A DNA stretch of 64,000 nucleotides, taken from contig NC_087386.1 in assembly GCF_963675165.1 (NCBI RefSeq), forward strand, positions 5,715,566-5,779,565, given 5' to 3'. Below the pieces are notes generated by a model. The model searched no databases. It was not told the origin of the DNA and saw only the letters and a program-made list of their open reading frames with translations. Both the position numbers and the translations under genes were made by a program. Positions 1,915 through 57,084 of this stretch are shown here, piece after piece (positions within the stretch are counted from its first letter, which is position 1; each line of letters starts with the position of its first letter). The stretch is from Halichondria panicea. Its lineage: Eukaryota > Porifera > Demospongiae > Suberitida > Halichondriidae.

Positions 1915-2443
1915 CTGTGAGAGAGAGGGACGGGATTAGTACACTCTGATACTCAAGGTGTGTGTGTGTGAGGTATCTAGTGGTGGGGTAGCTGAGATAA
2001 TAAGGTGCAATTCTGTACACAATAATAACAGACTGAAATGATAAAATCCACAGATATATGCAGCTAGCTAGCTAGATGGCCGTTGAAAGGTATGTGACTT
2101 AGGAGATCTGACGCCTCTGAGATCCAGACACATGAGAGTAATGAGAATGATATCTTAGCCAGCTGATGGAGGTATCTATTGTAGGGTGGGAGGGTACTCA
2201 CACTTACCATGAATTGTGTTGCCTATACAGTAGGTCTTTAGATTCTCCATTCGCCATGGTGGTCCAAGACACATCATGCAAGTTCTTGAATTTACGTATT
2301 ATGTGTCTGATTTGGTAAAGATCATTAAGCCTCTGAAATACACCGTGGTTACTGAATACCAATTATTTGGGCATGCGCAGTAGGAAAATGTGTCATATGA
2401 CCAACGAACACAAAGAGATACTCCCCTTTTTCTGCAAAACTCC
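1915..2443. other. Intergenic region between the FATP fragment and KA1
   Basis: Shared almost base for base with 43791-44324 upstream of KA4. On the minus strand it holds a short open segment starting ATG at 2257 (MANGESKDLLYRQ) that ends at 2208 before a GTAAGTG donor. Joining it to the FATP exon at 1914 would create TG|A, a stop, so it is not a convincing first exon of that fragment. A GCATGCGCAG motif near the right end is listed separately. Confidence 0.5.
2371..2380. promoter_or_regulatory. NRF1-like GCATGCGCAG motif upstream of KA1
   Basis: The motif lies 64 bp before the KA1 ATG. It recurs before KA2 (21689), KA3 (34909) and KA5 (60064), and in a changed form GCATGTGCAG before KA4 (44249). 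It resembles the core of the NRF1/alpha-Pal consensus, known as a TATA-less promoter element. Function here is inferred from position and conservation only. Confidence 0.45.
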
Positions 2444-5400
2444 ATGGCTACAAGAAGTGACCTTGATGCTCTGGTGGTCCAGGTGGAAGGATTGGGCTTA
2501 CAGGAGAACCAAGCTGGTCATGGGGCTTATGGCTGTGTCTTTAGAGTGACGGTGAATGGAAGAGACTGCATTGCTAAGAAGCTTCATCACATATTGCTCC
2601 AAGAGCAATCCCTTGGACAGAGGGAGAGGATTTTAACAAATTTCCGTCATGAGTGTCATATTCTGAGCGGTCTGGATCACCCCAACATTGTCGGTTTCGT
2701 TGGAGTCCATTACGGCCGTGATAAGAACGACATCAGTCTAATAATGGAGAGGCTTCATTCTGACTTGGCCAATTTCGTTGAAACCTATCGAGACACGAAT
2801 ATCGCCACTAGAATCCATATCCTGTATGATGTATCCAAGGGCCTTCACTATCTCCACTCTCTGACCCCTCCCCTCATCCATCGTGACCTCACTGCTCCCA
2901 ACATCCTGCTCACTGAGGATCTCACTGCCAAGATCGGAGACCTGGGTGTCTCCAGGTATGTGGACCTGGACAGATTGACTCATATACTGACAAGCGTCCC
3001 AGGAAATCCAAAATACATGCCTCCCGAGTGTCATGACGAACGACCCACCTACACTACCAAGCTGGACATCTTCTCATTCGGTCATCTCATCATTCACACT
3101 GTTATCGGTGATTTCCCTAAAGTCTCGTACTTAACTCACGATGCTATTAAGTACGTGGATGATGGAAAGGTGGAGCTCATGCGTCGAAGCACTGCTGTCC
3201 ATGGTGACAAAATGGGGGAGAAACACGCTCTTTATCCTCTTGTTGTTAGCTGCCTCCATGACCGACCTCAACAGAGACCATCAGTTGACGAACTGATTGT
3301 CTCACTCAGAAAGCTATGTCTACAGCACCCCAGGATGGTACGTGAGTGAGTGGGTGGAGGTATCAAATGTGCATTGTCAGCTTATATAGTGTTAGTGTCG
3401 ACTGTATGCTGGTACTTCTGTGTGGGTGGCTATAGAATCTTGAACAGTATATAACATGTACATACAATTTTTGTCATTCCATCTTTTGGGTGTGTTTACT
3501 GATAGTGTATTTTCTCCCAGGCATTTGTAGATGCTTGTGAGACGGGTGATGTGGGTGTGGTTCTGGAGCTACTGGAGTGTGGGGCTGATCCCAACCAGGC
3601 AGACAAGGTGAGGGGAATACTGTCTACAGTGCCAATATGTCCGTTGGTTGATGATGTTGTCTCTACAGTATGGTTGGACTGCTCTTTACTGGGCCAGTAG
3701 GAATGGACATGATGAGATAGTGAGGCTCCTCTTAGCAGCCAAGGCTACAGTCAACACTCAGATCAAGGTTTGTTTTGTTGTACAAATACATTTCCCACAA
3801 CATGCTGTTTACATTGTTTTCCTCCTATGTACAGGAGGGAGAGACTCCTCTTTGGACAGCCAGTTTCTATGGTCACCAGAAATGTATGGAACTCCTAATC
3901 AATGCTGGGGCCAATGTTGATGTACCCAAAGAGGTGAGTGTAAGTAGCTCTATACACATAGCCTCGATTCCAGGCCGATTAAAGTACGGCCTGGTACTTA
4001 TTGCATGGTGATAGTGAGCATGTGATAGTTTGTTCTCCAGAATCTGGGGAATCCCCTCTTTTCTTTCCATGTACATCAGCTTAGCTCTCTATTGTGTTGT
4101 TCCAGACGGCTTTCACACTAGTCTGAAGCCAAAAGAGGCTCTCATCCACTTCTATGACGGCTGTGTGGTCAGGATATCTTAGCTTGGATCTGTACAGGCT
4201 ATGGGAAGTGTATGGTGATTCTTGCATAGACAACCTGGCTATAGGACCATCGTAGACGTAGATGAGAGCCTCCAAACTAGTGTTCAAGCCTTCTAAGCAA
4301 TAGATACAGCTTCACGGAACTCAGTATGGAGATAAAATATTACGGAACATATTCTTAGGGACTAAATTACGGGTACTAAGGTTTTACGTTTGTAGTACGA
4401 TTACCCATATTCTGAAGGTACCAGGCAGTATTTTAATGCGGCCTGGAATCGAGGCTACTATACGCACATCTCAGAGGCCACTAGCCACAAAGCCTCCTCA
4501 TGTTCTGTTGACCTGGTCCATTAGACACCAGAGCTAGTCATGTTTGTGTAGAGAGCGCTGGTAGTTGGTACAACACGCATCTCGTGATCTATCCAATCTT
4601 TTTTACATTGGTTTTCAATGCAATGTGTTCCCTACAATAACTCTGTTATTTTGTGACTAAGGCTCAAGGGTAGTATAGTTTAGACCTAGATCTAACTGTT
4701 TCCGTTGCTGAACCCCAGTGAACCCTATTCAGTTAGGAGATATGCTTGCTACAAATGTTGAGAGCACTGCACCTTTCATATACATCTGGACGAGTTCTAA
4801 CCAGGACCTCAGCTGGAGAAACACTATAGCTAGCCATAGAGACCTTGAGCAATGTACAGAGCCAGCTAAATTGTCAGTTACAAGTGTTGTACAAGCCTAG
4901 AGTTTGTCGTAGCAAGGTCATGATATACTGCCAGCTAAGCAAACGTCATCAATTAAAAAAGTGTCCTCTGCCCCTGACATTAGTGTAGATAGTCATGTGA
5001 TATTGTATGAGTGATATTGTGTAATGAGTGGATCTGTACTATCTTGACTCTGTACAGGATGGGACCACAGCATTGTGGGTAGCTGCTCAGAATGGTCATG
5101 TGAGGGCAGTGGAATTGTTGATTGCTGCCAAAGCTAGAGTTGACATTCAAAATAAGGTGAGATTTACTAGAGTAGTGGATTGAGTAGTGGATTAGCTGGT
5201 CCAGTTGCGGGTTAGTGTAAAGCTGGAATCGGAATAGAACGAAAGATGGAATGACTAAAAAGAGAGCTGCTGATGGTGTTCTTAGTCTTAAATACTTGTG
5301 CTACAGAAGCCTTTTATAGACACAAAGCTACTATTATGTAAAAAAAATAGACTGAGTATAATTATAGTAGCAACATTGAACATTACAAATACACATAATT

Positions 5401-10866: not shown

Positions 10867-11928
10867 CTGTATCATGAAATGCATCTCTATATACAACAAT
10901 CTAGCGTTAATTTGTTGTAAGTTCGGACAATCCAAACTTGCATGGTTATGGTTCAAGGAAATTAGACAGCAATTTTCTTACTTCTAGACTACTGTCAGCT
11001 GATTATAAGGTGTGCCTTATTTATGGTGTTGCACTGAACTACTTGTAAGCAAAGATTGGAATATTGTCTAACGAGATACGGACATTGCATATAATAATAG
11101 ACTTTATATCTCCAGAGCTCTCACATGAGGTCCCAGTTTGGTGTGATCCGATTGGCCTCTTCCAGCACTCTAGTGAGGTCATGTCGGAAGTAGGGCTCAA
11201 ACACGACATCATCCTCCAGAATCAGGATTTGATCCAGACCCTCCGTCATCATCTGGGGGGTAAGAGAGGTACAGTAAGACTTGTCTATACTGGTCACCCT
11301 TGGACAGACCAACAGTGGCTATTATAACAAGATGCTCAGTAGAGCATTCATCCGTGCGTTGACATAACGGACACGCAATCAACTTTTTATTGTAATGACT
11401 TTAACATTATGGGGATTCTACAAAGCAACGATTGGATCGATTAGAAAACAGTGTTTTTTGTCGCCTTTGAAGACAAGTAGTTTATTATTTTTCAACCACC
11501 GCCTCATTATCAGTTAAAGCAGTTCATGAAAGTGTCTAGTTTGCTCAAACAGCTAATGTTTGTGTCCGCACACAGGAGACTTAGGAGCACATTAACCTGG
11601 CTGTAATATTATAGAGGGTGACCACATTAGACAGGTTTCACACAGTTACAAGTGCCCACAATGCAACAGGTAGCAATACTTTCTGTACACATCAACAAGT
11701 GTTCACTAACGCCCACTCACCTGCTGCCATATCGTGTGGTGACTAAGGAAACAGCCAAACTCTCCAAAGGTCATAGGTCGTTCTCCCCAAGGGTCCTTCC
11801 AGCCGGGTAGGTACTTGATGCCCAGACTGTCCAGGTAGCTCTGATTCAACTGTCTGTAGTGGCCAGGGATAAAATAAACAAAAGAGGTTCTTTTAAATAT
11901 GAGTTCCCCACCACATCCTTGTGTATCA

Positions 11929-12070
11929 ATTAGTGTGTATTGTCTTCTCCCCCATCCCTCTGTATTGTACAGCCAGTTATGTCTCCCCTCACACACAGTG
12001 AACCTATACTCTACACCATGCAGTACATCTCAAGACTACCCTCTCTCAATGACAATTTGGGGTTGGACGT
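11929..12070 (+). repeat. Inverted, unamplified copy of COLGALT exon 6b and its acceptor
   Basis: On the plus strand, opposite to the gene, a TGTCTCCCCTCACACACAG acceptor is followed by TG, then CCTATACTCT, and then 12022-12070, which encodes QYISRLPSLNDNLGLDV. This parallels QYISRPPPVKDNLGLDA of exon 6b. It lies in the E7-E8 intron. It differs by a 4-nt deletion from the real exon and ends GTGATAAG rather than a good donor. Upstream, 11929-11956 looks like one degenerate minisatellite unit. Confidence 0.65.
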
Positions 12071-12374
12071 GATAAGCCACTATCTAAAACCTTACTCCAT
12101 ACGATGTATAATTATTAATTTTCTCTCACCTTCCATCGACAGCATCAAAGAGGGTGTAGTTGAAGTTGAGCTCGTCCAGGCTTAAAATCATCCGGTTCCT
12201 TCTTTCTGGCCTCCGTACTAGCCCAATCATAAACACCTACCAAATATTGTTTGGAAATTATCAGTGAACTTTTATGATTTCCGTACACATACAACATAAC
12301 TGTAATAGTAGAGACAGCGTACCGCGTCCAACCCCAAGTTGTCTTTGACAGGGGGTGGTCTGGAGATGTACTGA

Positions 12375-15300
12375 CTGTACAGTATAGGGGGGTGGTCCAC
12401 TGTGTGGGGGGAAACAATACACACACTAATGCAGTATAGGGGTGTGGTCCACTGTGTGGGGGGAGACAATACACACACTAATGCAGTATAGGGGGGTGGT
12501 CCACTGTGTGGGGGGAGACAAGACACACACTAATGCAGTATAGGGGATGGTCCACTGTGTGGGGGGAGACAAGACACACACTAATGCAGTATAGGGGGGT
12601 GGTCCACTGTGTGGGGGGAGACAACACACACACTAATGCAGTATAGGGGGGTGGTCCACTGTGTGGGGGGAGACAACACACACACTAATGCAGTATAGGG
12701 GGGTGGTCCACTGTGTGGGGGGAGACAAGACACACACTAATGCAGTATAGGGGGTGGTCCACAGTGTGGGGGGAGACAATACACACACTAATGCAGTATA
12801 GGGGGGTGGTCCACTGTGTGGGGGGAGACAACACACACACTAATGCAGTATAGGGGGGTGGTCCACTGTGTGGGGGGAGACAATACACACACTAATGCAG
12901 TATAGGGGGGTGGTCCACAGTGTGGGGGGAGACAATACACACACTAATGCAGTATAGGGGGTGGTCCACTGTGTGGGGGGAGACAACACACACACTAATG
13001 CAGTGTAGGGGGGTGGGCCACTGTGTGGGGGGAGACAACACACACACTAATGCAGTGTAGGGGGGTGGGCCACTGTGTGGGGGGAGACAACACACACACT
13101 AGTGCAGTATAGGGGGGGGGGTGGTCCACTGTGTGGGGGGAGACAATACACACACTAATGCAGTATAGGGGGGTGGTCCACTGTGTGGGGGGAGACAACA
13201 CACACACTAATGCAGTATAGGGGGGTGGTCCACTGTGTGGGGGGAGACAACACACACACTAATGCAGTATAGGGGGGTGGTCCACTGTGTGGGGGGAGAC
13301 AATACACACACTAATGCAGTATAGGGGGGTGGTCCACTGTGTGGGGGGAGACAAGACACACACTAATGCAGTATAGGGGGGTGGTCCACTGTGTGGGGGG
13401 AGACAATACACACACTAATGCAGTATAGGGGGGTGGTCCACTGTGTGGGGGGAGACAACACACACACTAATGCAGTATAGGGGTGGTGGTCCACTGTGTG
13501 GGGGGAGACAATACACACACTAATGCAGTATAGGGGGGTGGTCCACTGTGTGGGGGGAGACAACACACACACTAATGCAGTATAGGGGGGTGGTCCACTG
13601 TGTGGGGGGAGACAATACACACACTAATGCAGTATAGGGGGGTGGTCCACTGTGTGGGGGGAGACAATACACACACTAATGCAGTATAGGGGGGTGGTCC
13701 ACTGTGTGGGGGGAGACAATACACACACTAATGCAGTATAGGGGGGTGGTCCACTGTGTGGGGGGAGACAACACACACACTAATGCAGTATAGGGGTGGT
13801 GGTCCACTGTGTGGGGGGAGACAATACGCACACTAATGCAGTATAGGGGGGTGGTCCACTGTGTGGGGGGAGACAACACACACACTAATGCAGTATAGGG
13901 GTGGTGGTCCACTGTGTGGGGGGAGACAATACACACACTAATGCAGTATAGGGGGGTGGTCCACTGTGTGGGGGGAGACAATACACACACTAATGCAGTA
14001 TAGGGGGGTGGTCCACTGTGTGGGGGGAGACAATACACACACTAATGCAGTATAGGGGGGTGGTCCACTGTGTGGGGGGAGACAAGACACACACTAATGC
14101 AGTATAGGGGATGGTCCACTGTGTGGGGGGAGACAAGACACACACTAATGCAGTATAGGGGGGTGGTCCACTGTGTGGGGGGAGACAACACACACACTAA
14201 TGCAGTATAGGGGGGTGGTCCACTGTGTGGGGGGAGACAACACACACACTAATGCAGTATAGGGGGGTGGTCCACTGTGTGGGGGGAGACAAGACACACA
14301 CTAATGCAGTATAGGGGGTGGTCCACAGTGTGGGGGGAGACAATACACACACTAATGCAGTATAGGGGGGTGGTCCACTGTGTGGGGGGAGACAACACAC
14401 ACACTAATGCAGTATAGGGGGGTGGTCCACTGTGTGGGGGGAGACAATACACACACTAATGCAGTATAGGGGGGTGGTCCACAGTGTGGGGGGAGACAAT
14501 ACACACACTAATGCAGTATAGGGGGTGGTCCACTGTGTGGGGGGAGACAACACACACACTAATGCAGTGTAGGGGGGTGGGCCACTGTGTGGGGGGAGAC
14601 AACACACACACTAATGCAGTGTAGGGGGGTGGGCCACTGTGTGGGGGGAGACAACACACACACTAGTGCAGTATAGGGGGGGGGGGTGGTCCACTGTGTG
14701 GGGGGAGACAATACACACACTAATGCAGTATAGGGGGGTGGTCCACTGTGTGGGGGGAGACAACACACACACTAATGCAGTATAGGGGGGTGGTCCACTG
14801 TGTGGGGGGAGACAACACACACACTAATGCAGTATAGGGGGGTGGTCCACTGTGTGGGGGGAGACAATACACACACTAATGCAGTATAGGGGGGTGGTCC
14901 ACTGTGTGGGGGGAGACAATACACACACTAATGCAGTATAGGGGGGTGGTCCACTGTGTGGGGGGAGACAATACACACACTAATGCAGTATAGGGGGGTG
15001 GTCCACTGTGTGGGGGGAGACAACACACACACTAATGCAGTATAGGGGTGGTGGTCCACTGTGTGGGGGGAGACAATACACACACTAATGCAGTATAGGG
15101 GGGTGGTCCACTGTGTGGGGGGAGACAACACACACACTAATGCAGTATAGGGGGGTGGTCCACTGTGTGGGGGGAGACAATACACACACTAATGCAGTAT
15201 AGGGGGGTGGTCCACTGTGTGGGGGGAGACAATACACACACTAATGCAGTATAGGGGGGTGGTCCACTGTGTGGGGGGAGACAATACACACACTAATGCA

Positions 15301-18300
15301 GTATAGGGGGGTGGTCCACTGTGTGGGGGGAGACAACACACACACTAATGCAGTATAGGGGTGGTGGTCCACTGTGTGGGGGGAGACAATACGCACACTA
15401 ATGCAGTATAGGGGGGTGGTCCACTGTGTGGGGGGAGACAACACACACACTAATGCAGTATAGGGGTGGTGGTCCACTGTGTGGGGGGAGACAATACACA
15501 CACTAATGCAGTATAGGGGGGTGGTCCACTGTGTGGGGGGAGACAATACACACACTAATGCAGTATAGGGGGGTGGTCCACTGTGTGGGGGGAGACAATA
15601 CACACACTAATGCAGTATAGGGGGGTGGTCCACTGTGTGGGGGGAGACAACACACACACTAATGCAGTATAGGGGGATGGTCCACTGTGTGGGGGGAGAC
15701 AAGACACACACTAATGCAGTATAGGGGGGTGGTCCACTGTGTGGGGGGAGACAACACACACACTAATGCAGTATAGGGGGGTGGTCCACTGTGTGGGGGG
15801 AGACAACACACACACTAATGCAGTATAGGGGGGTGGTCCACTGTGTGGGGGGAGACAAGACACACACTAATGCAGTATAGGGGGTGGTCCACAGTGTGGG
15901 GGGAGACAATACACACACTAATGCAGTATAGGGGGGTGGTCCACTGTGTGGGGGGAGACAACACACACACTAATGCAGTATAGGGGGGTGGTCCACTGTG
16001 TGGGGGGAGACAATACACACACTAATGCAGTATAGGGGGGTGGTCCACAGTGTGGGGGGAGACAATACACACACTAATGCAGTATAGGGGGTGGTCCACT
16101 GTGTGGGGGGAGACAACACACACACTAATGCAGTGTAGGGGGGTGGGCCACTGTGTGGGGGGAGACAACACACACACTAATGCAGTGTAGGGGGGTGGGC
16201 CACTGTGTGGGGGGAGACAACACACACACTAGTGCAGTATAGGGGGGGGGGGGGGTGGTCCACTGTGTGGGGGGAGACAATACACACACTAATGCAGTAT
16301 AGGGGGGTGGTCCACTGTGTGGGGGGAGACAACACACACACTAATGCAGTATAGGGGGGTGGTCCACTGTGTGGGGGGAGACAACACACACACTAATGCA
16401 GTATAGGGGGGTGGTCCACTGTGTGGGGGGAGACAATACACACACTAATGCAGTATAGGGGGGTGGTCCACTGTGTGGGGGGAGACAATACACACACTAA
16501 TGCAGTATAGGGGGGTGGTCCACTGTGTGGGGGGAGACAATACACACACTAATGCAGTATAGGGGGGTGGTCCACTGTGTGGGGGGAGACAACACACACA
16601 CTAATGCAGTATAGGGGTGGTGGTCCACTGTGTGGGGGGAGACAATACACACACTAATGCAGTATAGGGGGGTGGTCCACTGTGTGGGGGGAGACAACAC
16701 ACACACTAATGCAGTATAGGGGGGTGGTCCACTGTGTGGGGGGAGACAATACACACACTAATGCAGTATAGGGGGGTGGTCCACTGTGTGGGGGGAGACA
16801 ATACACACACTAATGCAGTATAGGGGGGTGGTCCACTGTGTGGGGGGAGACAATACACACACTAATGCAGTATAGGGGGGTGGTCCACTGTGTGGGGGGA
16901 GACAACACACACACTAATGCAGTATAGGGGTGGTGGTCCACTGTGTGGGGGGAGACAATACGCACACTAATGCAGTATAGGGGGGTGGTCCACTGTGTGG
17001 GGGGAGACAACACACACACTAATGCAGTATAGGGGTGGTGGTCCACTGTGTGGGGGGAGACAATACACACACTAATGCAGTATAGGGGGGTGGTCCACTG
17101 TGTGGGGGGAGACAATACACACACTAATGCAGTATAGGGGGGTGGTCCACTGTGTGGGGGGAGACAATACACACACTAATGCAGTATAGGGGGGTGGTCC
17201 ACTGTGTGGGGGGAGACAACACACACACTAATGCAGTATAGGGGGATGGTCCACTGTGTGGGGGGAGACAATACACACACTAATGCAGTATAGGGGTGGT
17301 GGTCCACTGTGTGGGGGGAGAAAATACACACACTAATGCAGTATAGGGGTGGTGGTCCACTGTGTGGGGGGAGATAATACACACACTAATGCAGTATAGG
17401 GGGGTGGTCCACTGTGTGGGGGGAGAAAATACACACACTAATGCAGTATAGGGGTGGTGGTCCACTGTGTGGGGGGAGACAATACACACACTAATGCAGT
17501 ATAGGGGGGTGGTCCACTGTGTGGGGGGAGACAACACACACACTAATGCAGTATAGGGGGGTGGTCCACTGTGTGGGGGGAGAAAATACACACATTAATG
17601 CAGTATAGGGGTGGTGGTCCACTGTGTGGGGGGAGAAAATACACACACTAATGCAGTATAGGGGTGGTGGTCCACTGTGTGGGGGGAGACAATACACACA
17701 CTAATGCAGTATAGGGGGGTGGTCCACTGTGTGGGGGGAGACAACACACACACTAATGCAGTATAGGGGGGTGGTCCACTGTGTGGGGGGAGACAATACA
17801 CACACTAATGCAGTATAGGGGGGTGGTCCACTGTGTGGGGGGAGACAATACACACACTAATGCAGTATAGGGGGGTGGTCCACTGTGTGGGGGGAGACAA
17901 TACACACGGGGGGGGGGGGGGAGACAACACACACACTAATGCAGTATAGGGGGGTGGTCCACTGTGTGGGGGGAGACAACACGCACACTAATGCAGTATA
18001 GGGGGGTGGTCCACTGTGTGGGGGGAGACAACACGCACACTAGTGCAGTATAGGGGGGTGGTCCACTGTGTGGGGGGAGACAACACGCACACTAGTGCAG
18101 TATAGGGGGGTGGTCCACTGTGTGGGGGGAGACAACACGCACACTAGTGCAGTATAGGGGGGTGGTCCACTGTGTGTAGGGGAGACAACACACATACTAA
18201 TGCAGTATAGGGGGGTGGTCCACTGTGTGGGGGGAGACAATACACACACTAATGCAGTATAGGGGGGTGGTCCACTGTGTGGGGGGAGACAACACACACA

Positions 18301-19226
18301 CTAATGCAGTATAGGGGGGTGGTCCACTGTGTGGGGGGAGACAACACACACACTAATGCAGTATAGGGGGGTGGTCCACTGTGTGGGGGGAGACAACACA
18401 CACACTAATGCAGTATAGGGGGGTGGTTCACTGTGTGGGGGGAGACAACACACACACTAATGCAGTACAGGGGGTGGTCCACTGTGTGGGGGGAGACAAC
18501 ACACACACTAGTGCAGTACAGGGGGGTGGTCCACTGTGTGGGGGGAGACAACACACACACTAGTGCAGTACAGGGGGGTGGTCCACTGTGTGGGGGGAGA
18601 CAACACACACACTAGTGCAGTACAGGGGGGTGGTCCACTGTGTGGGGGGAGACAACACACACACTAGTGCAGTACAGGGGGGTGGTCCACTGTGTGGGGG
18701 GAGACAACACACACACTAGTGCAGTACAGGGGGGTGGTCCACTGTGTGGGGGGAGACAATACACACACACTAGTGCAGTACAGGGGGGTGGTCCACTGTG
18801 TTGGGGGAGACAACACACACACTAGTGCAGTACAGGGGGGTGGTCCACTGTGTGGGGGGAGACAACACACACACTAGTGCAGTATAGGGGGGTGGTCCAC
18901 TGTGTGGGGGGAGACAACACACACACTAATGCAGTATAGGGGGGTGGTCCACTGTGTGGGGGGAGACAACACACACACTAATGCAGTATAGGGTGGTGGT
19001 CCACTGTGTGGGGGGAGACAACACTCACACTAATGCAGTATAGGGGGGTGGTCCACTGTGTGGGGGGAGACAACACACACACTAATGCAGTATAGGGGGG
19101 TGGTCCACTGTGTGGGGGGAGACAACACACACACTAATGCAGTATAGGGGGGTGGTCCACTGTGTGGGGGGAGACAACACACACACTAATGCAGTATAGG
19201 GGGGTGGTCCACTGTGTGGGGGGGAG
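12375..19226. repeat. Minisatellite array 1, ~52-bp unit, about 131 copies
   Basis: G-rich on the plus strand: each unit contains GGGGGGTGGTCCACTGTGTG, then GGGGGGAGACAA, a short CA tract, CTAATGCAGTATA. Units differ by single bases (51-53 bp). A block of about 30 units repeats three times with a period of 1564-1569 bp between about 12.4 and 17.2 kb. A G-run in the block is 10, then 11, then 14 G at about 13111, 14675 and 16241. On the minus strand each unit reads TCTCCCCCCACACAG, a polypyrimidine tract and CAG as at the acceptor of COLGALT exon 6b. Open frames through it are by-products of the unit length and are not genes. Confidence 0.95.
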
Positions 19227-19410: not shown

Positions 19411-20915
19411 CGCAAAACATTAATGATACAGAGAGTGTCTAGTGGGCAAGTAGAGGCTTACCAAGGTTGTCCAGCTGAAAGAGGAGGCAGCGTGGTCCAG
19501 GCTCTCATAGTCCTCTGGTTTGACCATGAACCCAAACACCTCGGTGTTCAGAATGTGCATAGGCAGATCTACAGTGGAGGGAAGGGGACAATTCAAACTT
19601 GTTCTACATGTACATACATGTACCATAATAAAGTGCACAGGTCAGCAAATAATGTATTCAGTGCAAGCCTCGTACATATAGACAAGTTATCCCCTCCCTA
19701 TGGACTGTACACGCACTGACTTACCTTTGCTGATCCATCAGAATCCGTAGTGTCCTGTTGTTCACCAGAAAGTTGTCACAGTCTAGCCGCTGGATAAACA
19801 ACAATTGTATAGTTAATCTGAGCTAGATACTGTGGATACCAAAATTGCAATAACTAAAACTGTATCTACTACTGTCTTGGGCAGACTAACAGTGGTTGTA
19901 ATAAAGAGGTGGTCTGCTAACACAGGTCCAAACACATGCTATATGGAGACTTTGGGCCTCATTAACCTGGCTGTATTATAGAGGGTGACCTGCTTACAGG
20001 GTGACCACTATAGACAGGTTTCACTGTATCATAATGGTACGTCTAGAGATAGCCTAGCTAGGTCGTTACAATAGATGGGCCGGGAACGAGGCTAGAGATG
20101 GTCACACCGATAACTCACAAAGAGGTAGTCTGCCCCTGAACGCCTGGCCGCCTCCAGACCTTTCTGTCTCAGCTGGGCAACATGGACGAACCTCTCGTCA
20201 TGCTCCTCGAAGGGGTCAAGGTTCGGATACAGCCACTCGTCTGATGACTTCAAGTCCACCGATTTGTACAAGAGCTTAACGTTTTCTGCCCACTCAGCAA
20301 GTATTGCCGTGGTGTTGTCACCGTTATGGTCTGTTCTGATCCTACAGTGTAGTTAATGATATTCATAGGTGGGTGGGGCTGGTACAAACACAATAGGGTT
20401 TTGTTTGCATGCAAGAAACAGAAATAGAAATTCTGCAAACTATTGCATCTGATATAGAGTAACATCTAATTATGATGCATAGTGGCAGGTGCAACTTACC
20501 ACAATGAAATCCTGTCTTTAGGATAGTCCAAGTTCTCCAGATAACCGAGAAAGTTGGGTAGCATGTGAGCTGAATTTCTAGCCAGAATAGCAAGGAAGAC
20601 ACTCGGCAGATCTTCAGCTGCTTCTAACGAGGAGTCTCCATTGTCCAACATGTATACAGACGGTATGGCAGTCACTAGGAGAGCTATGCACACAGCAAAT
20701 GCACAGCAAGTGCAATCCAGTGTATCGAGAGACTATTCATAGATGATCCGTGGAGCTGGGAATTTGATGGATATTTCTGACTGGTAATTATTTCACTGCT
20801 TCTGGAGCCTTACTCCTTCCTTAATCTACGCTCTCAGAGTCTGTGTGGCAGCCTCGCTTCTTTGATGGAGAACTGTACTTCTTTATCTTGACAAGAGAAG
20901 GATGTTATTGCTAAC

Positions 20916-21736: not shown

Positions 21737-24070
<2,334 letters not shown>

Positions 24071-26961: not shown

Positions 26962-27276
26962 TGATAAGCCACTATCTAAAACCTTACTCCATACGATGTA
27001 TGATTATTAATTTTCTCTCACCTTCCATCGACAGCATCAAAGAGGGTGTAGTTGAAGTTGAGCTCGTCCAGGCTTAAAATCATCCGGTTTCTTCTTTCTG
27101 GCCTCCGTACTAGCCCAATCATGAACACCTACCAAATATTGTTTGGAAATTATCAGTGAACTTTTATGATTTCCGTACACATACAACATAACTGTAATAG
27201 TAGAGACAGCTTACCGCGTCCAACCCCAAGTTGTTCTTGACAGGGGGTGGTCTGGAGATGTACTGACTGTACAGTA

Positions 27277-30200
27277 TAGGGGGGTGGTCCACTGTGAGGG
27301 GGGAGACAATACACACACTAATGCAGTATAGGGGGGTGGTCCACTGTGTGGGGGGAGACAATACGCACACTAATGCAGTATAGGGGGGTGGTCCACTGTG
27401 TGGGGAGAGACAACACGCACACTAATGCAGTATAGGGGGGTGGTCCACTGTGTGGGGGGAGACAACACACACACTAATGCAGTATAGGGGGGTGGTCCAC
27501 TGTGTGGGGGGAGACAACACACACACTAATGCAGTATAGGGGGGTGGTCCACTGTGTGGGGGGAGACAACACACACACTAATGCAGTATAGGGGGATGGT
27601 CCACTGTGTGGGGGGAGACAACACGCACACTAATGCAGTATAGGGGGGTGGTCCACTTTGTGTGGGGAGACAACACGCACACTAATGCAGTATAGGGAGT
27701 GGTCCACCGTGTGGGGGGAGACAACACACACACTAATGCAGTATAGGGGGATGGTCCACTGTGTGGGGGGAGACAACACACGCACACTAATGCAGTATAG
27801 GGGGGTGGTCCACTGTGTGGGGGGAGACAACACGCACACTAATGCAGTATAGGGGGGTGGTCCACTGTGTGGGGGGAGACAACACACACACTAATGCAGT
27901 ATAGGGGGGTGGTCCACTGTGTGGGGGGAGACAACACGCACACTAATGCAGTATAGGGGGGTGGTCCAGTGTGTGGGGGGAGACAACACGCACACTAATG
28001 CAGTATAGGGGGGTGGTCCACTGTGTGGGGGGAGACAACACGCACACTAATGCAGTATAGGGGGGAGGTCCACTGTGTGGGGTGGAGACAACACACACAC
28101 TAATGCAGTATAGGGGGGAGGTCCACTGTGTGGGGGGAGACAACACACACTAATGCAGTATAGGGGGGTGGTCCACCGTGTGGGGGGAGACAACACACAC
28201 TAATGCAGTATAGGGGGTGGTCCACTGTGTGGGGGGAGACAACACGCACACTAATGCAGTATAGGGGGGTGGTCCACTGTGTGGGGGGAGACAACACGCA
28301 CACTAATGCAGTATAGGGGGAAGGTCCACTGTGTGGGGGGAGACAACCCACACACTAATGCAGTATAGGGGGGTGGTCCACTGTGTGGGGGGAGACAATA
28401 CGCACACTAATGCAGTATAGGGGGATGGTCCACTGTGTGGGGGGAGACAATACGCACACTAATGCAGTATAGGGGGGTGGTCCACTGTGTGGGGGGAGAC
28501 AACATGCACACTAATGCAGTATAGGGGGGTGGTCCACTGTGTGGGGGGAGACAACATGCACACTAATGCAGTATAGGGGGGTGGTCCACTGTGTGGGGGG
28601 AGACAACACGCACACTAATGCAGTATAGGGGGGTGGTCCACTGTGTGGGGGGAGACAACACGCACACTAATGCAGTATAGGGGGGTGGTCCACTGTGTGG
28701 GGGGAGACAACACGCACACTAATGCAGTATAGGGGGGTGGTCCACCGTGTGGGGAGAGACAACACGCACACTAATGCAGTATAGGGGGGTGGTCCACTGT
28801 GTGGGGGGAGACAACACACACACTAATGCAGTATAGGGGGGTGGTCCACTGTGTGGGGGGAGACAACACGCACACTAATGCAGTATAGGGGGGTGGTCCA
28901 CTGTGTGGGGGGAGACAACACGCACACTAGTGCAGTATAGGGGGGGTGGTCCACTGTGTGGGGGGAGACAATACACACACACTAATGCAGTATAGGGGGG
29001 AGGTCCACCGTGTGGGGGGAGACAATACACACACTAATGCAGTATAGGGGGGTGGTCCACTGTGTGGGGGGAGACAACACACACACTAATGCAGTACAGG
29101 GGGGTGGTCCACTGTGTGGGGGGAGACAATACACACACTAGTGCAGTATAGGGGGGTGGTCCACTGTGTGGTGGAGACAACACACACACTAATGCAGTAT
29201 AGGGGGGTGGTCGACAACACGCACACTAATGCAGTATAGGGGGGTGGTCCACTGTGTGGGGTGGAGACAACACACACACTAATGCAGTATAGGGGGGTGG
29301 TCCACTGTGTGGGGGGAGACAACACACACATTAATGCAGTATAGGGGGGTGGTCCACCGTGTGGGGGGGAGACAACACGCACACTAATGCAGTATAGGGG
29401 GTGGTCCACCGTGTGGGGGGAGTCAACACGCACACTAGTGCAGTATAGGGGGTGGTCCACCGTGTGGGGGGAGACAACACGCACACTAGTGCAGTATAGG
29501 GGGGTGGTCCACCGTGTGGGGGGAGTCAACACGCACACTAGTGCAGTATAGGGGGTGGTCCACCGTGTGGGGGGAGACAACACACACTAATGCAGTATAG
29601 GGGGGTGGTCCACCGTGTGGGGGGAGTCAACACGCACACTAGTGCAGTATAGGGGGTGGTCCACCGTGTGGGGGGAGACAACACGCACACTAGTGCAGTA
29701 TAGGGGGTGGTCCACTGTGTGGGGGGAGACAACACGCACACTAGTGCAGTATAGGGGGTGGTCCACCGTGTGGGGGAGACAACACGCACAGTAGTGCAGT
29801 ATAGGGGGTGGTCCACCGTGTGGGGGAGACAACACGCACACTAGTGCAGTATAGGGGGATGGTCCACCGTGTGGTAGGAGACAACACGCACACTAGTGCA
29901 GTATAGGGGGGTGGTCCACCGTGTGGGGGGAGACAACACGCACACTAGTGCAGTATAGGGGGGTGGTCCACCGTGTGGGGGGAGACAACACGCACACTAA
30001 TGCAGTATACGGGGGTGGTCCACCGTGTGGGGGGAGACAACACGCACACTAATGCAGTATACGGGGGTGGTCCACCGTGGGGGGGAGACAACACGCACAC
30101 TAATGCAGTATAGGGGGGTGGTCCACCGTGGGGGGGGAGACAACACGCACACTAATGCAGTATAGGGGGGTGGTCCACCGTGTGGGGGGAGACAACACGC

Positions 30201-32224
30201 ACACTAATGCAGTATAGGGGGTGGTCCACCGTGTGGGGGGAGACAACACGCACACTAATGCAGTATAGGGGGGTGGTCCACCGTGTGGGGGGAGACAACA
30301 CGCACACTAATGCAGTATAGGGGGGTGGTCCACCGTGTGGGGGGAGACAACACGCACACTAATGCAGTATAGGGGGGTGGTCCACCGTGTGGGGGGAGAC
30401 AACACGCACACTAATGCAGTATAGGGGGGTGGTCCACCGTGTGGGGGGAGACAACACGCACACTAATGCAGTATAGGGGGGTGGTCCACCGTGTGGGGGG
30501 AAGACAACACGCACACTAATGCAGAATAGGGGGGTGGTCCACCGTGTGGGGGGAAGACAACACGCACACTAATGCAGTATAGGGGGGTGGTCCACCGTGT
30601 GGGGGGAGACAACACGCACACTAATGCAGTATAGGGGGGTGGTCCACCGTGTGGGGGGAGACAACACGCACACTAATGCAGTATAGGGGGGTGGTCCACC
30701 GTGTGGGGGGAGACAACACGCACACTAGGTCCACTGTGTGGGGGGAGACAACACGCACACTAGTGCAGTATAGGGGGGTGGTCCACTGTGTGGGGGGAGA
30801 CAACACGCACACTAATGCAGTATAGGGGGGTGGTCCACTGTGTGGGGGGAGACAACACACACACTATTGCAGTATAGGGGGGTGGTCTACTGTGTGGGGG
30901 GAGACAATACGCACACTAATGCAGTACAGGGGGGTGGTCCACTGTGTGGGGGGAGACAATACGCACACTAATGCAGTACAGGGGGGTGGTCCACTGTGTG
31001 GGGGGAGACAACACGCACACTAATGCAGTACAGGGGGGTGGTCCACTGTGTGGGGGGAGACAACACGCACACTAATGCAGTACAGGGGGGTGGTCCACTG
31101 TGTGGGGGGAGACAACACGCACACTAGTGCAGTATAGGGGGGTGGTCCACTGTGTGGGGAGAGACAACACGCACACTAGTGCAGTATAGGGGGGTGGTCC
31201 ACTGTGTGGGGGGAGACAACACGCACACTAGTGCAGTATAGGGGGGTGGTCCACTGTGTGGGGGGAGACAACACGCACACTAATGCAGTATAGGGGGGTG
31301 GTCCACTGTGTGGGGGGAGACAACACACACACTATTGCAGTATAGGGGGGTGGTCTACTGTGTGGGGGGAGACAATACGCACACTAATGCAGTACAGGGG
31401 GGTGGTCCACTGTGTGGGGGGAGACAATACGCACACTAATGCAGTACAGGGGGGTGGTCCACTGTGTGGGGGGAGACAACACGCACACTAATGCAGTACA
31501 GGGGGGTGGTCCACTGTGTGGGGGGAGACAACACGCACACTAATGCAGTACAGGGGGGTGGTCCACTGTGTGGGGGGAGACAACACGCACACTAGTGCAG
31601 TATAGGGGGGTGGTCCACTGTGTGGGGAGAGACAACACGCACACTAGTGCAGTATAGGGGGGTGGTCCACTGTGTGGGGGGAGACAACACGCACACTAGT
31701 GCAGTATAGGGGGGTGGTCCACTGTGTGGGGGGAGACAACACGCACACTAGTGCAGTATAGGGGGAGTGGTCCACTGTGTGGGGGGAGACAACACGCACA
31801 CTAGTGCAGTATAGGGGGGGTGGTCCACTGTGTGGGGGGAGACAATACACACACACTAATGCAGTATAGGGGGGAGGTCCACCGTGTGGGGGGAGACAAT
31901 ACACACACTAATGCAGTATAGGGGGGTGGTCCACTGTGTGGGGGGAGACAATACACACACTAGTGCAGTATAGGGGGGTGGTCCTCTGTGTGGGGGGAGA
32001 CAACACGCACACTAATGCAGTATAGGGGGGTGGTCCACTGTGTGGGGGGAGACAACACACACACTAATGCAGTATAGGGGGGTGGTCCACTGTGTGGGGG
32101 GAGACAACACACACACTAATGCAGTACAGGGAGGTGGTCCACTGTGTGAGGGGAGACAACACACACACTAATGCAGTATAGGGGGGTGGTCCACTGTGTG
32201 GGGGGAGACAATACACACACTAAT
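27277..32224. repeat. Minisatellite array 2, ~52-bp unit, about 95 copies
   Basis: Same unit as array 1, but many units carry CACGCACAC and CCACCGTG, so this array has its own variant spectrum. A block containing CTATTGCAG and GGTCTACTGTG occurs twice, at about 30865 and 31333, giving a 468-bp (nine-unit) higher-order period. One unit is internally shortened at about 30724. It lies in the E6-E6b intron of COLGALT copy 2 and ends at ATACACAGTCAAGG. Confidence 0.95.
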
Positions 32225-33120
32225 GGATACACAGTCAAGGATGTTGTGGGAACACTATTAAAAGAGCACCTCTTTATATGACCTGCACTAATTATACCCG
32301 CCCACACACATTGTTCACAGCAACAATGGAGCTACATCAGCACACACTGAGATGGCTACTGGCTATACTAACAAAGAGCAGATGACACCGCAGCCTTAAG
32401 GGGGAGAGGCTTACCAAGGTTTTCGTGGTCCAGGCTCTCATAGTCCAGGCTCTCATAGTCCTCTGAACCCAAACACCTCGGTGTTCAGAATGTGCATAGG
32501 CAGATCTACAGTGGAGGGAAGGGGACAATTCAAACTAGTTATGGTTTGGGTAATTTGATAAGCTTGAAGAGTCTGTCCAATACAGTACCTGCCATTTTTG
32601 CCGAGTATGCCAAGTGTGTGACCTCATCCATGGGTCCAGTGAACCCGTCCAGTGCCGGCCAGTGTTGGAGCCTCTCTGACCCCGCCCACCTCAGGTCAAC
32701 GAGGAGGGCGGAGTGAACCACAGGGACTGGGATACAGCCCACCTGCGTCCCTTGGAGGATAGGGATATAGTCAGGGGTACGTTTGTAGTAGCCCTGAGGG
32801 GAAACAGTCAAAAGATGAAAACGCATTATTTTTTCAAGTTGTCAGACACAGGTCACACTTGATTGACACTTGACATTGGGAATGACTTAATTTGTACACA
32901 GTGCATTGGCACAGTACAGCTTGTGGGCATGTTCATGATAGAGAGGCAGACTTTACACAAAAGTACAGTGCGACAGTATGGTATAATCCATGAAATGGAG
33001 TACCCTCCACTCCACTAGATCTAGACCTCCTTAGCTCAACTCACCCGGCTGTCTATTCCACACCAGAAGTTGGAGTAAGCAGCATCCTTGCCCGACTTTA
33101 GCATCGGAGCCACTATTGCC

Positions 33121-52500: not shown

Positions 52501-55500
52501 GGGAGACAACACGCACACTAGTGCAGTATAGGGGGGGTGGTCCACTGTGTGGGCCGGGAGACAACACGCACACTAGTGCAGTATAGGGGGGTGGTCCACT
52601 GTGTGGGGGGAGACAACACGCACACTAGTGCAGTACAGGGGGGTGGTCCACTGTGTGGGGGGAGACAACACGCACACTAGGTCCACTGTGTGGGGGGAGA
52701 CAACACGCACACTAGTGCAGTATAGGGGGGTGGTCCACTGTGTGGGGGGAGACAAAACGCACACTAGTGCAGTATAGGGGGGTGGTCCACTGTGTGGGGG
52801 GAGACAACACGCACACTAGTGCAGTATAGGGGGGGTGGTCCACTGTGTGAGGGAGACAACACGCACACTAGTGCAGTATAGGGGGGTGGTCCACTGTGTG
52901 GGGGGAGACAACACGCACACTAGTGCAGTATAGGGGGGTGGTCCACTGTGTGGGGGGAGACAAAACGCACACTAGTGCAGTATAGGGGGGTGGTCCACTG
53001 TGTGGGGGGAGACAACACGCACACTAGTGCAGTATAGGGGGGGTGGTCCACTGTGTGGGGGAGACAACACGCACACTAGTGCAGTATAGGGGGGTGGTCC
53101 ACTGTGTGGGGGGAGACAACACGCACACTAGTGCAGTATAGGGGGGGTGGTCCACTGTGTGGGGGGAGACAACACGCACACTAGTGCAGTATAGGGGGGT
53201 GGTCCACTGTGTGGGGGGAGACAACACGCACACTAGTGCAGTATAGGGGGGGTGGTCCACTGTGTGGGGGAGACAACACGCACACTAGTGCAGTATAGGG
53301 GGGTGGTCCACTGTGTGGGGGGAGACAACACGCACACTAGTGCAGTATAGGGGGGGTGGTCCACTGTGTGGGGGAGACAACACGCACACTAGTGCAGTAT
53401 AGGGGGGTGGTCCACTGTGTGGGGGGAGACAACACGCACACTAGTGCAGTATAGGGGGGGTGGTCCACTGTGTGGGGGGAGACAACACGCACACTAGTGC
53501 AGTATAGGGGGGTGGTCCACTGTGTGGGGGGAGACAACACGCACACTAGTGCAGTATAGGGGGGGTGGTCCACTGTGTGGGGGGAGACAACACGCACACT
53601 AGTGCAGTATAGGGGGGTGGTCCACTGTGTGGGGGGAGACAACACGCAAACTAGTGCAGTATAGGGGGGTGGTCCACTGTGTGGGGGGAGACAACACGCA
53701 AACTAGTGCAGTATAGGGGGGTGGTCCACTGTGTGGGGGGAGACAACACGCACACTAGTGCAGTATAGGGGGGTGGTCCACTGTGTGGGGGGAGACAACA
53801 CGCACACTAGTGCAGTATAGGGGGGGTGGTCCACTGTGTGGGGGAGACAACACGCACACTAGTGCTGTATAGGGGGGTGGTCCACTGTGTGGGGGGAGAC
53901 AACACGCACACTAGTGCAGTATAGGGGGGTGGTCCACTGTGTGGGGGGAGACAACACGCACACTAGTGCAGTATAGGGGGGGGGTGGTCCACTGTGTGGG
54001 GGGAGACAACACGCACACTAGTGCAGTATAGGGGGGTGGTCCACTGTGTGGGGGGAGACAACATGCACACTAGTGCTGTATAGGGGGGTGGTCCACTGTG
54101 TGGGGGAGACAACATGCACACTAGTGCTGTATAGGGGGGTGGTCCACTGTGTGGGGGGAGACAACACGCACACTAGTGCAGTATAGGGGGGTGGTCCACT
54201 GTGTGGGGGGAGACAACACGCACACTAGTGCAGTATAGGGGGGTGGTCCACTGTGTGGGGGGAGACAACACGCACACTAGTGCAGTATAGGGGGGTGGTC
54301 CACTGTGTGGGGGGAGACAAAACGAACACTAGTGCAGTATAGGGGGGTGGTCCACTGTGTGGGGGAGACAACATGCACACTAGTGCTGTATAGGGGGGTG
54401 GTCCACTGTGTGGGGGGAGACAACACGCACACTAGTGCAGTATAGGGGGGGGGTGGTCCACTGTGTGGGGGGAGACAACACGCACACTAGTGCAGTATAG
54501 GGGGGTGGTCCACTGTGTGGGGGGAGACAACACGCACACTAGTGCAGTATAGGGGGGTGGTCCACTGTGTGGGGGGAGACAAAACGCACACTAGTGCAGT
54601 ATAGGGGGGTGGTCCACTGTGTGGGGGAGACAACATGCACACTAGTGCTGTATAGGGGGGTGGTCCACTGTGTGGGGGGAGACAACACGCACACTAGTGC
54701 AGTATAGGGGGGTGGTCCACTGTGTGGGGGGAGACAACACGCACACTACAGTAGGTCCACTGTGTGGGGGGAGACAACACGCACACTAGTGCAGTATAGG
54801 GGGGGTGGTCCACTGTGTGGGGGGAGACAACACGCACACTAGTGCAGTATAGGGGGGTGGTCCACTGTGTGGGGGGAGACAACCCGCACACTAGGTCCAC
54901 TGTGTGGGGGGAGACAACACGCACACTAGTGCAGTATAGGGGGGGGTGGTCCACTGTGTGGGGGGAGACAACACGCACACTAGTGCAGTATAGGGGGGTG
55001 GTCCAGTGTGTGGGGGGAGACAACACGCACACTAGTGCAGTATAGGGGGGTGGTCCAGTGTGTGGGGGGAGACAACACGCACACTAGTGCAGTATAGGGG
55101 GGTGGTCCACTGTGTGGGGGGAAACAACACGCACACTAAGTCCACTGTGTGGGGGGAGACAACACGCACACTAGTGCAGTATAGGGGGGTGGTCCACTGT
55201 GTGGGGGGAGACAACACGCACACTAGTGCAGTATAGGGGGGTGGTCCACTGTGTGGGGGGAGACAATACGCACACTAATGCAGTATAGGGGGGTGGTCCA
55301 CTGTGTGGGGGGAGACAACACGCACACTAGTGCAGTATAGGGGGGGTGGTCCACTGTGTGGGGGGAGACAATACGCACACTAATGCAGTATAGGGGGGTG
55401 GTCCACTGTGTGGGGGGAGACAACACGCACACTAGTGCAGTATAGGGGGGTGGTCCACTGTGTGGGGGGAGACAACACGCACACTAGTGCAGTATAGGGG

Positions 55501-57084
55501 GGTGGTCCACTGTGTGGGGGGAGACAACACGCACACTAGTGCAGTATAGGGGGGTGGTCCACTGTGTGGGGGGAGACAACACGCACACTAGTGCAGTATG
55601 GGGGGGTGGTCCACTGTGTGGGGGGAGACAACACGCACACTAATGCAGTATGGGGGGATGGTCACTGTGTGGGGGGAGACAACACGCACACTAGTGCAGT
55701 ATAGGGGGGTGGTCCACTGTGTGGGGGGAGACAACACGCACACTAGGTCCACTGTGTGGGGGGAGACAACACGCACACTAGTGCAGTATAGGGGGGTGGT
55801 CCACTGTGTGGGGGGAGACAACACGCACACTAGTGCAGTATAGGGGGGTGGTCCACTGTGTGGGGGGAGACAACACGCACACTAGTGCAGTATAGGGGGG
55901 TGGTCCACTGTGTGGGGGGAGACAACACGCACACTAGTGCAGTATAGGGGGGTGGTCCACTGTGTGGGGGGAGACTACACGCACACTAGTGCAGTATAGG
56001 GGGGTGGTCACTGTGTGGGGGGACACAACACGCACACTAGTGCAGTATAGGGGGGTGGTCCACTGTGTGGGAGGAGACAACACGCACACTAATGCAGTAT
56101 AGGGGGGTGGTCCACTGTGTGGGGGGAGACAACACGCACACTAGTGCAGTATAGGGGGGTGGTCCACTGTGTGGGGGGAGACAACACGCACACTAGTGCA
56201 GTATAGGGGGGTGGTCCACTGTGTGGGGGGGGACAACACGCACACTAGTGCAGTATAGGGGGGTGGTCACTGTGTGGGGGGAGACAACACGCACACTAGT
56301 GCAGTATAGGGGGGTGGTCACTGTGTGGGGGGAGACAACACGCACACTAGTGCAGTATAGGGGGGTGGTCCACTGTGTGGGGGGAGACAACACGCACACT
56401 AATGCAGTATAGGGGGGTGGTCCACTGTGTGGGGGGAGACAACACGCACACTAATGCAGTATAGGGGGGTGGTCCACTGTGTGGGGGGAGACAACACGCA
56501 CACTAATGCAGTATAGGGGGGTGGTCTACCGTGTGGGAGGAGACAACACGCACACACTAATGCAGTATAGGGGGTGGTCCACTGTGTGGGGGGAGACAAC
56601 ACGCACACTAATGCAGTATAGGGGGGTGGTCCACTGTGTGGGGGGAGACAACACGCACACTAATGCAGTATAGGGGGGTGGTCCACTGTGTGGGAGGAGA
56701 CAACACGCACACACTAATGCAGTATAGGGGGGTGGTCCACTGTGTGGGGGGAGACAACACACACACTAATGCAGTATAGGGGGGTGGTCCACTGTGTGGG
56801 GGGAGACAACACACACACTAGTGCAGTATAGGGGGGTGGTCCACTGTGTGGGGGGAGACAACACACACACTAATGCAGTATAGGGGGGTGGTCCACTGTG
56901 TGGGGGGAGACAACACACACACTAATGCAGTATAGGGGGGTGGTCCACTGTGTGGGGGGAGACAACACACACACTAGTGCAGTATAGGGGGGTGGTCCAC
57001 TGTGTGGGGGGAGACAACACACACACTAATGCAGTATAGGGGGGTGGTCCACTGTGTGAGGGGAGACAATACACACACACTAAT
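52501..57084. repeat. Minisatellite array 3, ~52-bp unit, about 88 copies
   Basis: Dominated by the CACGCACACTAGTGCAG variant on the left and by the CACACACTAATGCAG variant on the right. Several units are deletion-shortened (CACACTAGGTCCACTG at about 52676, 54890 and 55743). It ends at ATACACAGTCAAGG, the same right boundary as array 2. Its left edge breaks into an ACBD6-like exon instead of COLGALT exon 6b. Confidence 0.95.

Follow-up and report, generated by a model that had tools for sequence, protein, structure and literature searches.

Introduction

The minisatellite of the human 6-16 gene (G1P3, IFI6), described by Turri et al. in 1995, reportedly contains multiple splice donor sites in an array of 12 bp units. 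In ABCA7, the length of an intronic VNTR correlates with skipping of exon 19, according to the cited part of the source (PMC5954066). In C. elegans, the CeRep25B minisatellite is enriched near alternative splicing regions and contains over-represented intronic motifs (PMC4039745, cited part), and some novel Drosophila introns have been traced to tandem duplication of coding sequence (PMC2891723, cited part).

Here, we describe an intronic array in the sponge Halichondria panicea whose repeat unit is a splice acceptor together with the first bases of its exon. The DNA analysed (the window) is a stretch of 64,000 nucleotides, positions 5715566-5779565 of contig C10 in the 131-Mb assembly, and lies inside the COLGALT cluster of this species. 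We think it probable that the array is a hypermutable minisatellite born from the acceptor of exon 6b, in which the last acceptor would be favoured by exon definition while the rest would mostly be passive decoys.

The array and its repeat unit

TRF reports a tandem repeat on the minus strand at 12380-19223 of the window, with a period of 52 bp, 130.6 copies and 94% matches, i.e., head-to-tail units within the range of roughly 10-100 bp of a minisatellite or VNTR. The unit consists of CATTAGTGTGTGTATTGTCTCCCCCCACACAG, the 32 nt at the 3' end of the intron with a C-tract and CACACAG, followed by TGGACCACCCCCCTATACTG, the first 20 exonic bases of exon 6b, and the final unit continues unbroken into this exon (12323-12399). 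A sequence-only reading of the window had described just such a minisatellite, built from a 3' splice site and the start of a coding exon, and had counted many tandem acceptors in the intron. Both descriptions agree with what we find. Divided into units, this array yields 132, and in 125 of these CAG is intact, giving an acceptor-like site. The junction 16-mer CACACAGTGGACCACC occurs 297 times in the window at up to one mismatch, compared with 0.02 expected occurrences, and is on the minus strand in all cases among the matches listed. Three arrays of the same unit are present in the window:

12380-19223, minus strand: array 1 (TRF, unit split, variant string by eye, CACACTG spacing)
27272-32225, minus strand: array 2, same 52-bp unit, 96 units, of which 62 keep CAG; stops interrupt E6 of the paralogue that carries it (TRF, unit split, frame test)
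52501-57078, minus strand: array 3, same 52-bp unit, 89 units, 86 with CAG; the E6 before it is identical to that of the complete gene, and exon 6b was not found after it (TRF, exon alignment, unit split)

In array 1, a higher-order block of 30 units (~1.56 kb each) is repeated about three times, as seen by eye in the variant string, with the block spacing taken from the CACACTG units at 16039, 14473 and 12909. The unit length is 1 mod 3, and CAT TAG is read in one frame. The plus strand has G6 runs, which may favour G-quadruplex instability.

The gene copy carrying array 1

The array sits in a COLGALT copy at 11-21 kb of the window, with the following features:

20500-20740, minus strand: exon E1, 241 nt, with an 11-nt insertion and a damaged frame (exon alignment)
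20119-20341, minus strand: exon E2 (exon alignment)
19725-19789, minus strand: exon E3; between it and E6, this copy lacks E4 and E5 (exon alignment, genome search)
19462-19568, minus strand: exon E6, 107 nt, shortened from the 117-nt form by a 10-bp deletion; its donor CTTG/GTAAGC is in phase 0 (paralogue alignment, exon lengths and phase)
12400-12451, minus strand: penultimate unit, which would be added to the exon by splicing at the penultimate acceptor (in-silico splicing of each acceptor, 52-base spacing)
12323-12399, minus strand: exon 6b, 77 nt, VDHPPILYSQYISRPPPVKDNLGLDA; acceptor CACACAG/TGGACC, donor CGCG/GTACGC (exon alignment and boundaries; homologous to the human COLGALT1 V-K-H-P-P segment)
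12130-12236, minus strand: exon E7 (exon alignment)
12003-12069, plus strand: exon 6b duplicated in inverted orientation, ~80% identical, within the intron that follows E7 (exon alignment)
11721-11853, minus strand: exon E8 (exon alignment)
11125-11252, minus strand: exon E9 (exon alignment)

Neither genome search nor exon alignment found E10 or later exons for this copy. The sequence-only reading had taken it for a functional COLGALT gene whose donor is in phase 1. Instead, it is a truncated, frame-damaged COLGALT paralogue, without the full exon set and the open frame of a functional gene: E4, E5 and the C-terminal exons are missing, E1 has gained 11 nt and E6 has lost 10. Because of the lengths of E1 and E6 and the absence of E4 and E5, the donor is in phase 0 when counted in the E6 frame, and the last acceptor shifts the frame. 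When each of the 125 acceptors is spliced in silico, only the penultimate one opens E6-E8. Even then, the E3-E6 join is out of frame, as the sums of exon lengths put the end of E3 in phase 2, not in the phase 1 that E6 requires.

The 3' end of E6 varies among copies through deletion of 10 or 30 bp and, in some, through further rearrangement with a 15-bp duplication and stops. An inverted duplicate of the intron end and exon 6b is found in the intron after E7 in 12 of the 13 copies with exon 6b and is absent from the complete gene. Such a duplicate (12003-12069; L029 2168-2257 / 2555-2644) could fold E7 into a loop.

The COLGALT cluster and its complete gene

The unit has at least 565 matches in the genome, all on C10 between 5.57 and 6.41 Mb among the matches listed, and COLGALT exons are repeated many times in this cluster. 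Its right half (6.24-6.42 Mb) was covered by search matches and one 6.5-kb piece. Membership of the COLGALT family is clear from a joined E6-E8 query with the 117-nt type of E6 end, which matches the human chain 9u7j with E = 6.7e-36.

The C-terminal part has a single match region in the genome, at 5.668-5.669 Mb within the copy at 5668319-5673188, and E4 and E5 are present at eight loci by genome search. In the complete gene (5.67 Mb, outside the window), E1-E6 add up to exactly 916 nt, which puts the donor in phase 1; exon 6b continues the frame (LENL-VDHPP), and the array has only 3 units. The sequence-only reading had given E1-E6 of 916 nt, a phase-1 donor and a Val in frame to the array-bearing copy. 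These values hold for the complete gene and fail for the copy to which they had been assigned (E1 241, no E4/E5, E6 107, phase 0). The third copy in the window would also reach 916 nt over E1-E6 if its disrupted E1 is taken at the full 230 nt (686 + 230).

Exon 6b was not found downstream of arrays of the same unit at C10 5835k, 5837k, 5861k, 5892k and 5917k and at 52501-57078 of the window. By eye, a second tandem repeat of ~70 bp lies in the E2-E3 intron of the complete gene (L010 about 2150-2500, minus strand). Protein-kinase-like reading frames, also seen by eye, lie on the plus strand at 2384-3349 and 21920-22654 of the window, opposite to and between the COLGALT copies, with ankyrin-like reading frames near them; both seem to have been duplicated along with the COLGALT copies.

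Origin from a splice junction

Exon 6b starts with V-D-H-P-P, which aligns with V-K-H-P-P of human COLGALT1 (PDB 9u7j), and six relatives cross the exon 6b junction without an insert (proteins compared by eye). V-x-HPP is found at the junction in the relatives P0003, P0004 and P0006, and near forms in Ephydatia (P0005, VFHPL), Geodia (P0007, VNYPP) and Amphimedon (P0010, VNHYP), again by eye. By these alignments, the start of exon 6b is old. At 4.578 Mb, a fragment of a paralogue contains one unit, and so does, downstream of E7, the adjacent inverted copy of the same intron end and exon.

It could be argued that the array came first and that exon 6b took its initial 20 bases from it, as exon start and unit are identical. 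However, the residues encoded at the exon start align with human COLGALT1 and other relatives, and a paralogue with one unit exists. We therefore reject this order of events, which we hold to be exceedingly improbable. The old exon start (human V-x-HPP) and the single-unit paralogue instead indicate that the array grew from a real acceptor; the proposal that the expansion began at a real splice junction is thus supported, also by the single unit in both arms of the inverted duplication. In principle, the single-unit copy at 4.578 Mb, a decayed fragment, could be a contraction rather than the ancestral form. By eye, no microhomology was seen between the new inter-unit joint and the flanks.

Length variation

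Seventeen arrays were counted, with 3, 3, 8, 11, 15, 17, 35, 43, 46, 49, 49, 59, 83, 89, 92, 96 and 132 units, the one at 5917k being cut by the end of the sequence piece taken. Over these arrays, CAG is intact in 703 of 830 units. Within one genome, the same exon stands behind 1, 3, 8, 15, about 45, about 90 or 132 near-identical units.

The copies at 5.743 and 5.878 Mb show that length changes fast. Their aligned flanks show 1 difference in 2401 bases and 3 in 1335 (4/3736), with 2 gap runs, while their arrays measure 4954 and 4278 bp (96 vs 83 units), with 11 gap runs. This instability of array length between near-identical duplicates is minisatellite-like.

Acceptor quality

The sequence-only reading had proposed scoring each unit as a splice site. 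We used a rough matrix built from nine other acceptors of the complete gene, with the 402 other AGs of this gene as background (95th percentile 4.7). Of the acceptors in array 1, 124 of 125 score above this percentile, with a matrix weak enough that 6 of its own 9 acceptors fall below it when left out. The median is 8.4, and the last acceptor, at 11.6, stays within the spread of the others (2.8 to 12.9). The true site of the complete gene scores 9.7, below the 12.1 and 10.9 of the two decoys there. As the unit acceptors score like the last one on this rough matrix, site strength does not explain why the last acceptor would win.

The A of the acceptor (column 31) is among the more variable columns, with a minor fraction of 0.144 across 825 full units, and we see no sign that selection maintains the decoy acceptors. 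Masking of the acceptor by an RNA hairpin was also rejected, as two single units and one pair of units fold no better than shuffles (z -0.28, 0.58, -0.31), and no clear pairing pattern was found between positions 11 and 31 (59 C-G, 329 C-A, 44 T-G, 376 T-A). A single-unit junction (L029 about 2180-2260) folds more stably than 196 of 200 shuffles (z -2.14, 4/200 as good), with the C-tract in a loop.

Reading frames behind the acceptors

Read off the standard internal unit, rather than acceptor by acceptor, a phase-1 donor leads to VDHPPILH and a stop. The frame test covered 10 copies and the 6.38-Mb copy; seven of the 17 arrays lie outside it, six without a downstream exon 6b or cut off, and the 5.571-Mb copy, where exon 6b is present. 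In the five phase-1 copies with an open last acceptor, the frame stays open for 2 of 175 upstream acceptors and is lost for 173. Upstream acceptors open to E8 number 0/2 in the complete gene, 0/47 at 5785k, 1/41 at 5799k and 0/31 at 5900k, and 1/54 are open to E9 in the 6.38-Mb copy. This count leaves out the phase-1 copies 5683k (0/75) and 5713k (0/40), where no acceptor, the last included, is open to E8.

In-silico splicing found no open acceptor in these two phase-1 copies, in the phase-0 copy at 5700k, where a mutation has turned the true acceptor into CGG, and in the two phase-2 copies, both of which have stops in E6. Frame rescue by an upstream unit is thus seen once, in the window copy.

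It can be speculated that the array is a self-made bank of acceptors that rescues frame-shifted paralogues and throttles others, with array length setting the mix of isoforms; we judge this very unlikely. The last, penultimate and third-from-last acceptors would suit donor phases 1, 0 and 2, and those farther away would hit a stop, since the unit has 52 nt and one TAG per standard unit. We find this match of acceptors to phases highly doubtful too: E6-E8 of the window copy are rescued by the penultimate acceptor, whereas the other phase-0 copy tested gains no rescue and none of the phase-2 cases is open.

Gene models and acceptor choice

Three public proteins, all gene models, enter exon 6b through the last acceptor, and two of these bypass 41 and 54 upstream acceptors. 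P0001 corresponds to the 49-unit copy spliced at its last acceptor, with full identity in the 411 of its 477 residues that were compared. P0002 corresponds to the 6.38-Mb copy (55 acceptors, 11 CGG units) and matches it without a difference in the 302 of 369 residues compared. In P0121, labelled isoform X1, the last acceptor is used to connect E3 with exon 6b, and the frame is unlike that of COLGALT; the label and the frame-shifted join hint at transcripts behind this model. Against the last-acceptor reading, it may be said that the public proteins are models and that gene predictors would favour an open frame. No public protein was found for the array-coded peptide, using a 357-aa query and proteins of 0.55 to 1.75 times its length (2 candidates, none scored). 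That acceptor choice may affect splicing, as the sequence-only reading suggested, is unproven.

The truncated copies might be pseudogenes that are not expressed, and the array a neutral expansion resembling a satellite, with zero consequence for splicing. Missing exons, damaged frames and stops are what such pure decay would leave, and so are the E1 insertion and E6 deletion of the window copy and the lost true acceptor (CGG) at 5700k. Its account of the origin is the one that we prefer, and the two explanations are not mutually exclusive. However, there are public proteins for two array-bearing copies, and an isoform X1 protein with a frame-shifted join would be odd if transcripts were absent. 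Furthermore, distinct changes relative to the complete gene lean synonymous, with 25 per 174 S sites and 28 plus 2 stops per 615 N sites, a hint rather than a selection test, as it comes from hand-picked, full-length, ungapped matches in five exons at 5.66-5.92 Mb, with gapped or partial matches and copies elsewhere dropped, and gene conversion or shared ancestry could also give such a lean. Overall, a complete lack of consequence for splicing seems unlikely.

At the other extreme, the array could be a working regulator, in which near-identical acceptors compete, leakage to decoys yields truncated or extended isoforms, and array length tunes the amount of functional protein from each copy. The scores of 124 of the 125 acceptors above the 95th percentile of the other AGs (rough matrix) are consistent with such competition, as are the unit length of 1 mod 3, the penultimate acceptor that restores E6-E8 in the phase-0 window copy, and the mere 3 units in the sole gene found with C-terminal exons. 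However, the variable acceptor A (0.144) indicates that the decoys are seemingly not kept by selection; rescue occurs just once, with no open acceptor at 5700k and stops in E6 of both phase-2 copies; and the normal junction is annotated in copies with 49 units and 55 acceptors. We consider regulation by the array rather improbable, less likely still than pure decay.

Proposed course of events

We suggest that in the H. panicea lineage a tandem duplication across the 3' splice site of exon 6b, taking in 32 nt of intron and 20 nt of exon, seeded the minisatellite, whose length would then have changed fast, as in other minisatellites. Such fast change would explain why 3 to 132 units now stand at the same intron end across the COLGALT copies. 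The spliceosome would mainly take the last acceptor through exon definition, as this acceptor adjoins an exon that is short (77 nt) and bears a 5' splice site. Splicing may leak to the nearest upstream units, giving exons of 129 and 181 nt, and in phase-1 genes this leak would truncate the protein (VDHPPILH-stop in the standard unit). The remaining units would be passive decoys, tolerated, we propose, mostly because the C-terminal exons are missing from all copies but one.

This origin from the exon 6b acceptor, with the last acceptor favoured, builds directly on the old exon start, the single-unit paralogue, the length series, the near-identical duplicates that differ in array length, the mostly intact acceptors and the three last-acceptor gene models. 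One genome shows how a minisatellite can arise from a splice junction, and the later fate of the gene family. With the length series, it also becomes directly testable whether the choice of a single 3' splice site from many equivalent candidates follows first come, scanning or exon definition.

Comparison with known systems

Among the open-licence papers listed, we recognised no precedent for an acceptor-type minisatellite, which is weak evidence of absence. By analogy, the closest precedent appears to be the 6-16 minisatellite. There, as in the sponge array, the unit holds a splice-site consensus and each transcript would have many candidate sites; in the sponge, 703 of 830 units keep CAG and the scores from the rough matrix make the sites plausible. 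The 6-16 repeat differs in having donors and a short unit, while the sponge has acceptors plus 20 coding bases in a 52-bp unit, up to 132 units, many paralogous arrays and a single-unit form.

The ABCA7 VNTR is likewise an intronic tandem repeat, and its length correlates with the splicing of an exon; its units, unlike those in the sponge, are not described as splice junctions themselves in the cited part of the source (PMC5954066). CeRep25B is also a minisatellite, enriched near alternative splicing, and in the cited part of its description is not derived from an exon-intron junction, unlike the sponge array (PMC4039745). In the Drosophila introns, according to the part of the source cited, tandem duplication at splice-site-like sequence alters gene structure, as it does in the sponge (PMC2891723). 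Those duplications led to intron gain, whereas the sponge carries an array of one acceptor.
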